A DNA stretch of 64,000 nucleotides from an uncultured Pseudomonadales bacterium (GTDB taxonomy: Bacteria; Pseudomonadota; Gammaproteobacteria; Pseudomonadales; Azotimanducaceae): the NCBI GenBank assembly GCA_958296405.1, contig OY282519.1, positions 124,001 through 188,000 on the forward strand, in the 5' to 3' direction. Below are positions 33,644 through 37,725 of the stretch, one piece after another (the stretch's first letter is position 1; each line of letters begins with the position of its first letter). Under the pieces are notes generated by a model. It was not told the origin of the DNA. It did not search any database and saw only the letters and a list, made by a program, of their open reading frames with translations. The position numbers were made by a program, and so were the translations under genes.

Positions 33644-33661
33644 AGGCCTTCGCCCACCGCA
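33644..33661. repeat. 18-bp target-site duplication, left copy
   Basis: AGGCCTTCGCCCACCGCA occurs here and identically at 35090-35107, immediately flanking the insertion sequence between them. Confidence 0.85.
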
Positions 33662-35089
33662 TGTCGATAGCAAATTGATCTGTCCGCTTTTGGCAGCACG
33701 TCATCTGTCCGGTTCTCCCGCTGGCCGGACGAGCCCTGCGGGCAGTCGTCCGAGCAGCGCTTTCCACGGTCTTTCCACGGGCGCGATCCCCTCGAACATG
33801 AAAGCGCGGGTGGGAAGGCGGTGGGAAGCGCGGCGCCGAGCCGGCGCGGCCTCTTCATGCGCCGGCCGCCGGCGCGCCGTCCGCGCCGTAGCGGCCCAGC
33901 CGCCGCGGCCCGTGGAACACCGACAGGCGCCCGTCCGAGTGTTCGTGGACCCGCACCGTCCGCCTCACGTAGTGCCTGCCGTGCGGCCCCGGCGGGATCT
34001 GCAGGCGCAGGTTCTTGTACCGAATGCAGTTGTCGTTGCCCACCTTGCGCTCCTCCTTCAGGCACAGGATGTCGTCCAGGTCCGCGTCCAGCGCCGGGAC
34101 GAAGCCGTCCCCCGACTCCGCCGCAGGCACCGCGAAGCGCTGGTTCCACGACGGCCAGAACGCCTGCTCCAAGTATCGGTTGGCCGCCTCCATGTCGCGG
34201 ACGCCCTCCGCCGCCAGCTCCTTCGGCAGCCGCCCCTGCATGGTTCCGAACTGGCGCTCCGAACGCCCCCGCGCCTGCGGCGAGTATGACGGGATCATCT
34301 CGATGCCCAGCTCCCGCATCGCCCTCCCGAACTGCGTCGGGTTCGACTTGTCCACTCCGCCGCCCGCCTTCGGCGTGTGCCAGTAGTGGCTGCCGCGGTC
34401 CGTCCACAGGCTGCCGAACAGCCCGCGGCGCTCCACCGTCTCGCGAACCCCGCGCAGGCTCGACCAAGTGTCCTCCTCGTCCACGAAGAACCCGGAGTAC
34501 ACCTCCGTCGTCGCGTCGTCCAGCGTCACGATCAGGTCCCAGACCGCGCCCTCCACCCAGCGGTGCGTCGATCCGTCCTGATGCGCCAGCAGACCCGCCA
34601 TCGGCGTCCGCTCGCGCTGCTTCCGATGCTTCCCCTTCCCGCGCCCCTTCGCCACCAGCCCGGCCGCCTGCAGCCGGTTCTTCGTCCACGTGTACGACCG
34701 CTCTCCGCCGTGCCTCTCCCGGTAGCGCTCGTGGAAGTGCGCCACCGACCAGCCGGCGTAGCGCTCCCTGTACAGCGCCTCCATCCGAACCACCTCGTCC
34801 ACCGGCGCGCTCCGGGCCGACACCTGGGACATCCGCTTGTCCGCCAGCCCCTCCAGCCCGTCCTCGCGGTACCGGTCCACATACCTCCGGAACGACCGCG
34901 GGCACACCCCCAGCAACTCCGCCGCCTCCTCCTGCGTCAGCCGCCCCTCCGTCCACGCCGACAGCGCCTCCTCGAATCTCCTCATCCTCGTCTCCTGCAG
35001 CCATGCCGCCTTCTTCACAGACCCTCCGGGTCCATCCAAAAGCGGACAATCTATGTGCTGCAAAAGCGGACAGATGATGTGCTAACAAC
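33662..35089. mobile_element. ISNCY-like insertion sequence
   Basis: About 1.43 kb flanked by an identical 18-bp direct repeat. The ends carry imperfect inverted repeats of about 35 bases: the left contains ATCTGTCCGCTTTTGGCAGC (from 33679) and the right, on the minus strand, ATCTGTCCGCTTTTGCAGCA (from about 35074), preceded on both sides by TAGCA. It encodes one apparently intact transposase. Long duplications of this kind are known for the IS1202 group within the ISNCY families. The insertion separates the dioxygenase from the cytosine methyltransferase. Confidence 0.85.
33855..35018 (-). CDS. ISNCY-type transposase (integrase core)
   Basis: 387 residues from a GTG at 35018 preceded by GGAGGG. 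N-terminal helix-turn-helix RLTQEEAAELLGVCPRSFRR, a second basic HTH region, then an integrase catalytic core: the Asp of VWDLIVTLDDATTEVYSGFF, the Asp of LFGSLWTDRGSHYWHT and the Glu in QARGRSERQFGTMQGRLPKE. The tail LRLQIPPGPHGRHYVRRTVR is typical of this transposase group. The frame is open and complete. A longer start (TTG 35063) would begin within the inverted repeat and is less likely. Confidence 0.88.
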   Translation of the reverse strand: MKKAAWLQETRMRRFEEALSAWTEGRLTQEEAAELLGVCPRSFRRYVDRYREDGLEGLADKRMSQVSARSAPVDEVVRMEALYRERYAGWSVAHFHERYRERHGGERSYTWTKNRLQAAGLVAKGRGKGKHRKQRERTPMAGLLAHQDGSTHRWVEGAVWDLIVTLDDATTEVYSGFFVDEEDTWSSLRGVRETVERRGLFGSLWTDRGSHYWHTPKAGGGVDKSNPTQFGRAMRELGIEMIPSYSPQARGRSERQFGTMQGRLPKELAAEGVRDMEAANRYLEQAFWPSWNQRFAVPAAESGDGFVPALDADLDDILCLKEERKVGNDNCIRYKNLRLQIPPGPHGRHYVRRTVRVHEHSDGRLSVFHGPRRLGRYGADGAPAAGA

Positions 35090-35107
35090 AGGCCTTCGCC
35101 CACCGCA
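35090..35107. repeat. 18-bp target-site duplication, right copy
   Basis: Identical to 33644-33661; marks the right end of the insertion sequence. Confidence 0.85.
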
Positions 35108-36633: not shown

Positions 36634-37725
36634 ATGTACGACACGTCTTATCCGGTGCGCGCGAACCTGCGCGAGGCCCATGAGCAAGCATGGCAACTCA
36701 TTGCCCAGCCCGGCGCATTCTGGAGCGGCGCCCAGCGGGTGCAGATCGTGCAGGAGGCGCGGGCGGCGTTGCGCTGCAGCCTCTGCGAGCGGCGCCAAGA
36801 AGCGCTTTCGCCGAACGCTGTGCAGGGCGACCACGACACGGCGAGCGCATTGCCGGCTGCCTTGGTGGAAGTGATTCACCGCCTGCGGTCAGACCCTGCG
36901 CGCATGACGCGCTCCGTGTTCGATGAAGCCCTCGCCGCCGGCCTCTCAGCGGAACAATATGTGGAGACGGTGAGCGTCGTCTGCACATCCGTCGTCATCG
37001 ACACGTTCCACATCGCGCTGGGGCTCGAAACGCCCGCCCCGCTTGAGCCGCAAGCCGGCGCGCCGACCGGGCAAGAACCGCCGCCAGTGGTGGACGGCGG
37101 CGCTTGGGTACCCCTCACGGCGGTGGATGTGCAAGACGGCACCTTCGGCCTGCCCCGCGCCCCAAACATCGGCCGCTCAATGGGCTCGGTGCCGAGCGCC
37201 GTGGCGCTCTTCTTCTTGGCATTCCGCCCGCATTATGCGCTGCGCGACATTCCCCTTGCCATCAGCCAAGCGCAGGCGGAGTTCATCGCCTCCCGGGTGT
37301 CTGCCCTCAACGAATGCTTCTACTGAGCCACCTCGCACACCATGCTGCTCCGGGCGAGCGGCGAGCGCGATGGCACCACCTATAACCTTTCCGCCGTGAC
37401 GGACGATGCCGCCGATGCCGGCGTTCCCCACAGCGGCCTGATCCGCGGCCTGACGGAAGCCGCAGTGCATCATGACGCCACGGCGCTGGCCACCCTGCGC
37501 GAGGCAGCGACCGTCGCCATGGGCGAGCAGCAGATGGTGGACACGCTCACCGTCGCCGCCGCCTTCAACGGCATCACCCGCGTCGCCGACGCCACCGGCA
37601 TCCCGCTGGACGCCAACACGCAGCAGATGACCGCGAGCCTGCGCATGGAGACGGGGATCGATGGATTCGATTATGGCGCGAAGAGGGCGCGCTATGACGG
37701 CGTGGCGTCCGCCGCCGGCGCTTGA
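36634..37725 (+). CDS. AhpD-like (CMD family) selenoprotein, Sec encoded by TGA at 37324
   Basis: Two open frames in the same phase, separated only by a TGA at 37324-37326, form one 363-residue alkylhydroperoxidase/carboxymuconolactone-decarboxylase-like protein. Around the TGA the sequence reads SALNECFYUATSHTMLLRAS: this is the AhpD active-site pattern E-C-x-x-C-x-x-x-H with the second cysteine replaced by the TGA residue (231). The N-terminal half has LRCSLCERRQEALSP and EQYVETVSVVCTSVVIDTFH; the C-terminal half has VDTLTVAAAFNGITRVADAT. A SECIS-like hairpin follows at 37344-37362. Thiol/selenol peroxidase or oxidoreductase activity is likely. The alternative, a nonsense mutation, is hard to reconcile with the motif position. 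Automatic annotation would split it. Confidence 0.88.
37344..37362 (+). promoter_or_regulatory. Bacterial SECIS-like hairpin
   Basis: GCTGCTC (37344-37350), loop CGGGC (37351-37355) and GAGCGGC (37356-37362) form a 7-bp stem including one T-G pair, extendable by another T-G wobble (37343 with 37363). The apical loop begins 25 bases after the TGA and has G as its second base. Published bacterial SECIS models require a loop 16-37 bases from the UGA with a G among its first two positions, so this fits. It would bind SelB. Confidence 0.75.

Follow-up and report, generated by a model that had tools for sequence, protein, structure and literature searches.

The locus and its protein family

The window, i.e. 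the whole 64-kb stretch of DNA that was analysed, carries on its forward strand an AhpD-related gene whose single frame is interrupted solely by a TGA codon and closed by a TGA stop at 37723-37725. The gene and its predicted features are as follows.

36634..37722, + strand: AhpD-related gene of the NF041238 family, predicted selenoprotein of 363 residues with the TGA at 37324 read as Sec
36634..37053, + strand: predicted N-terminal AhpD-like lobe (approximately residues 1-140), with C48-x-x-C51 and without the Glu/Tyr/His relay
37141..37671, + strand: predicted C-terminal AhpD/CMD lobe (approximately residues 170-346), with E216, C228, Y230, U231 and H235
37324..37326, + strand: in-frame TGA, putative Sec231, second redox position of C228-F-Y-U231
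37344..37362, + strand: putative SECIS-like hairpin, stem 37344-37350/37356-37362, loop 37351-37355 (CGGGC)
37346-37350/37356-37360, + strand: conserved core stem of the hairpin, five pairs

A preliminary description of this DNA had reported the single frame broken only by this TGA and had foreseen that mechanical gene calling would split it. Both points hold on the + strand, as an ORF listing that takes TGA as a stop yields pieces of 230 residues (36634-37326) and 127 residues (37342-37725). Translation likewise confirmed its placement of the codon at the second-Cys position of a redox motif: the surrounding residues are N-E-C-F-Y-U-A-T-S-H, and the TGA occupies the second redox position of E-C-F-Y-U-x3-H.

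The read-through protein matches the NCBIfam model NF041238 (AhpD_rel_CFYUT, 'alkylhydroperoxidase-related (seleno)protein') with 416.2 bits for a cut-off of 175, residues 8-346 aligning with positions 1-356 of the 357 of the profile. Residues 209-248 also match PF02627 (CMD; 26.8 bits, cut-off 23). The CFYUT signature with its in-frame TGA is present here as CFYUA. This Ala for Thr after Sec, the sole difference that we found between the window gene and NF041238, also occurs in L035/L050 (one gene seen twice).

In the available part of a 2026 review (PMC13188914), NF041238 is listed as 'AhpD-related protein (hypothetical protein 1, Sargasso Sea metagenome)' with the motif CxxU, an entry that cites Zhang, Fomenko and Gladyshev 2005. 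The accessible sections of the latter (PMC1088965) attribute a CXXU motif to hypothetical protein 1, and their Table 2 counts four Sec and seven Cys sequences for it in the Sargasso set, and zero Sec and five Cys sequences in complete genomes. As far as these partial sources go (PMC1088965, PMC13188914), the full-length match, the CFYU motif, the Sec in second position and a SECIS-like hairpin downstream are all common to hypothetical protein 1/NF041238 and the window gene. Because of the match over the full model and the papers on the Sargasso protein, this kind of gene is to be regarded as known. The window gene is a member of a selenoprotein family already described, and its double-lobed shape is the only fresh detail. 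The claim of the preliminary description that this is a genuine selenoprotein is supported by the data, but it amounts to less than was implied: the family is already catalogued as a selenoprotein and is covered by a model in NCBI annotation.

We compared the gene neighbourhoods of 80 loci, namely 79 retrieved loci and the window stretch. In the window, the gene adjoins a ChsH2-type OB-fold/thiolase pair and a DNA methyltransferase gene. The most shared neighbour outside the gene itself is found at 24 of the 80 loci at most, and therefore we draw no function from the neighbourhood. This recurring gene lies on the opposite strand (e.g. L072 4621-5961, - strand), within 200 bases of the start of the selenoprotein gene in 21 of the 24 cases, and the one representative examined codes for an O-acetylhomoserine sulfhydrylase. 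In 20 loci, a gene of alpha/beta-hydrolase-like type, judged from one representative, is present further along. Neither type of neighbour accompanies the window gene within the stretch compared. The window also contains an insertion resembling an IS (33644-35107), with an ORF at 33855-35063 (- strand) coding for HTH domains. Inverted repeats lie within this insertion, and 18 nt are repeated perfectly in direct orientation (33644-33661/35090-35107). Approximately 1.5 kb is missing at this place from the sister contig L050.

Probable selenocysteine at the in-frame TGA

We read the codon in the nearest relatives of the gene, i.e. at 28 whole-genome loci, one of which is L036, the copy in the window itself, and at 80 loci on genome contigs, the latter being the best 80 of 314 matches. 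TGA occupies the same codon at all 108 loci (107 retrieved relatives and L036), which represent 101 distinct sequences, as seven pairs are the same stretch seen twice. Among the whole-genome matches above the cut-off, 46 of 47 contain exactly one TGA, and the 47th is a fragment that ends short of the site. A Cys form of the family was not found among the best 80 of 314 contig matches and the 28 whole-genome loci. As these contig loci are the best 80 of 314, a more distant Cys branch may have been missed; the available part of PMC1088965 counts Cys homologues. In a phylum-wide sample searched at E <= 1e-25, the family is present in one of 398 genomes, the gene's own genome, and a megablast search of plasmids gave no match. 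Six genomes (G001, G003, G007, G012, G015 and G023) have at least three above-cut-off family matches each, with one TGA inside each match, and some of these matches are cut by contig ends.

Bacterial SECIS-type hairpins lie approximately 16-37 nt from the UGA and carry a G at the first or second position of the loop. The 7-bp hairpin announced in the preliminary description, 18 bases after the TGA and with a G at loop position 2, is indeed there: it starts at the 18th base after the TGA and comprises seven pairs, or eight counting the U-G pair 37343/37363, and both its distance and the loop CGGGC agree with the SECIS type. The G at loop position 2 is present in all 96 distinct 48-nt sequences, and the five core pairs are formed in 93, 94, 94, 96 and 96 of them. 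Pair 27/33 shows a compensatory change, with C-G in 91 sequences, U-A in four and U-G in one (n=96).

The choice of synonymous codons in the hairpin is similarly narrow. Leu is encoded by CTC or CTT in 101/101 distinct sequences, where codon usage in these genes would predict approximately 39. Arg is encoded by CGG or CGT in all 95 sequences with Arg (~31 expected from the same genes), and CGC, the commonest Arg codon elsewhere, is never used; the six other sequences have AGT or GGT. The Ser codon is AGC or AGT in 97/97 sequences with Ser (~36 expected from the same genes), with four others. RNAalifold gave a consensus of -5.24 kcal/mol, and none of 200 column shuffles was as good. In contrast, when folded singly, the window sequence does not surpass its own shuffles (z +0.31), and the core stem is part of the minimum-energy fold of 56 of the 96 single sequences. 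A search of the 64-kb window with Rfam yielded no family at gathering score. The alignment thus indicates that the hairpin is under nucleotide-level selection, and this support comes from the comparison between sequences, not from single-sequence energy.

The preliminary description had proposed a search for the selenocysteine machinery, with the absence of selB, selC or selD as a refutation. This outcome did not occur: selA, selB, selC and selD are all present in the gene's own genome, a single contig of 3,825,434 bases that is 98.3% complete. The selA (514 bits) and selB (376 bits) genes are adjacent and overlap head to tail. The Pfam domain SelB-wing_2 has no match in this genome; we rejected this as a sign of SelB absence, as the full SelB model matches SelB. 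The selD gene codes for a 729-residue Ndh-SelD fusion (268 bits; L018 331-2520) with CGGCG in its SelD part, a fusion type known from ocean data according to the accessible part of PMC2398784. The tRNA-Sec model is unspecific, with matches at E <= 0.001 in 14/14 control genomes, above the cut-off in five of them. Of the two matches that exceed the cut-off in the gene's own genome, one is a tRNA-Ser. We therefore used ARAGORN to name the tRNA-Sec gene (selC), which has a TCA anticodon and scores 69.7 bits.

Across 58 related genomes, selA is found above the cut-off in 25 of the 28 genomes in which the gene itself scores above its cut-off and in 10 of the 30 in which it does not (Fisher p 1.3e-5), a co-occurrence that is confounded by kinship. 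Two of the three exceptions, G023 and G025, have pieces of selA below the cut-off, and the third, G001 (71% complete), has a weak match only. When the comparison is limited to genomes from other families of the order (n=21), the figures are 2/2 versus 2/19 (p 0.029). In one related genome of the order (L040, G047:C321), the selenoprotein gene (378-1463) is directly followed on the same strand by selA (1738-2961).

On these sequence data, we consider it very likely that the internal TGA of this AhpD-related gene codes for selenocysteine. The conserved sequence and the complete machinery suggest that the UGA at 37324 would be decoded by SelB and tRNA-Sec, directed by the hairpin. It is extremely improbable that the locus has decayed to a pseudogene, or that the TGA is a real stop between two separate genes. 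The ATG at 37342 could start the 127-residue ORF, and evolution is faster after the TGA, with a higher dN/dS than before it in 9 of 11 pairs (0.38 versus 0.11 for the window and the sister contig L050). However, the dN/dS values 3' of the TGA are 0.13-0.46, below 0.5 in 11/11 pairs, an indication that the part downstream is translated. The occurrence of TGA and no other codon at the 108 loci and the Sec machinery in the same genome also argue against two genes or a decayed one, and the second ORF would, according to the model, start within the helix after the redox motif. Readthrough of the UGA as a near-cognate residue (Trp, Cys or Arg) is very improbable. The identity of residue 231 is deduced from the sequence, which leaves some room for such decoding, but the synonymous constraint on the SECIS-like hairpin, the four sel genes and the presence of Cys in the homologous AhpD column all point to Sec. 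These findings support the use of selenocysteine in a genome that consists of one contig and is close to a record from an uncultured member of the Pseudomonadales (sister contig OY282379.1), and the UGA is retained in every one of the nearest relatives read.

Two predicted lobes and the proposed chemistry

The AlphaFold2 model of the whole chain has a pLDDT of 89.3. In Foldseek searches with this model AhpD structures rank first, with no E-value below 0.07, and neither the whole chain nor the N-lobe has a match at E <= 0.001. At the sequence level, the C-terminal lobe has matches among AhpD structures (6k40, E 6.8e-13). Its residues E216, C228, Y230, U231 and H235 are invariant in 21/21 aligned sequences and follow the spacing of the AhpD relay, Glu-x11-Cys-x-Tyr-Cys/Sec-x3-His. 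The Sec in the second position is presumably the attacking atom, like Cys133 in M. tuberculosis AhpD. The catalytic residues of 2PRR given in the available part of PMC4674687, Glu74, Cys86, Tyr88, Cys89 and His93, map by spacing to E216, C228, Y230, Sec231 and H235, respectively.

The N-terminal lobe modelled alone has a pLDDT of 91.8. Its first Foldseek matches are 6k40, 2prr, 3c1l and 2oyo, with probabilities of 0.99-1.00 but E-values of 0.04-0.15 and an rmsd of approximately 9 A. A sequence profile of this lobe searched against PDB sequences also places 6k40 and 2oyo first (E 0.16-0.2). C48 and C51 are invariant in 21/21 aligned sequences, and the relay residues are not kept in this lobe. 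Alignment of the N-lobe and C-lobe profiles places C48xxC51 on C228xxU231, which is a hint only (P = 0.037, probability 1.4%). No Pfam family explains the N-lobe in the 21 members scanned, for which ten families were matched in one or two members each (best E 0.002). Both the whole chain and the N-lobe alone thus rank AhpD structures first, at E >= 0.04, and these models and fold searches suggest two fused AhpD-like lobes per chain. The protein is likely a fused AhpD pseudo-dimer that arose by duplication.

From AhpD chemistry, the protein is likely a thiol/selenol peroxidase. The selenolate of Sec-231, activated by a Glu216/Tyr230/His235 relay, would most likely reduce an organic hydroperoxide. 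Cys228 would then resolve Sec-231 to form a selenenyl sulfide, to be reduced by a cellular dithiol. As a conjecture, C48/C51 of the N-lobe may pass electrons on to the Sec centre, or their role may be structural. Taken as a whole, a selenoprotein of two AhpD-like lobes that performs the peroxidase step is in our analysis fairly probable.

It is possible, though somewhat doubtful, that the protein is a true selenoprotein but not a peroxidase, and that it uses the CMD/AhpD fold for disulfide exchange, redox sensing or a reductive reaction like that of the debrominase Bmp8. Bmp8, which has the same fold, is among the Foldseek matches (rank 15, probability 0.91), the invariant N-terminal CxxC (21/21 aligned) would suit such roles, and the O-acetylhomoserine sulfhydrylase-type gene (one representative) near 24/80 loci belongs to sulfur amino-acid metabolism. 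In contrast, AhpD and peroxidase-related proteins are the best relatives by both sequence and fold, and the window protein retains the residues of the AhpD relay, which favours a peroxidase.

Relation to AhpD proteins and sestrins

Selenoproteins called AhpD-like 1 (COG2128) and CMD-like/AhpD-like 2 (PF02627) likewise have CxxU in AhpD/CMD-domain proteins of marine bacteria; the accessible parts of PMC1088965 and PMC2398784 list them apart from hypothetical protein 1, as families of their own. By both sequence and fold, the C-lobe is matched best by the peroxidase-related AhpD proteins 6k40, 2oyo, 2prr and 3c1l, which also have the relay Glu, Cys, Tyr, Cys and His, as far as the available part of the source goes. 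Unlike the two-lobe protein of the window, they are one-lobe chains of 188-197 residues. In the alignments, 6k40 and 2oyo have Cys where the window protein has Sec. Thus, the expectation of the preliminary description that homologues have Cys in this column is correct for these AhpD proteins outside the family, whereas within the family the relatives read have TGA throughout.

The two-lobe reading of this family was not found in the open-licence literature searched. According to the available part of PMC4674687, Sestrin2 consists of two fused AhpD-like lobes in one chain, only one of them with the catalytic relay, and corresponds to a duplicated 2PRR-like monomer. Foldseek comparison of the whole chain with Sestrin2 gave TM-scores of 0.42 and 0.45 (probabilities 0.80 and 0.82) for 5t0n, and a TM-score of 0.44 (probabilities 0.54 and 0.63) for 5dj4. 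The full-length rmsd of 14-16 A gives no support to a similar packing of the lobes. In sequence searches, sestrins were absent both from the whole-chain matches at E <= 0.1 and from the 16 N-lobe matches at E <= 10. The likeness to sestrins may be convergent. The active site of Sestrin2, as given in the same partial source, lies in the N-lobe and has a single Cys, its catalytic residue being the first Cys (PMC4674687). In contrast, that of the window protein would be in the C-lobe, with CxxU, and a CxxC is kept in the N-lobe.

We tentatively propose, as a possibility of rather low probability, that this family is a bacterial, Sec-bearing counterpart of the sestrin architecture. A duplication of AhpD would have given rise to a Sec peroxidase lobe and a degenerate lobe whose invariant C48/C51 reload the selenenyl sulfide, i.e. 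a self-contained two-centre peroxidase. The two-lobe reading offers a testable reason for the N-terminal dithiol, which the family name leaves unexplained.
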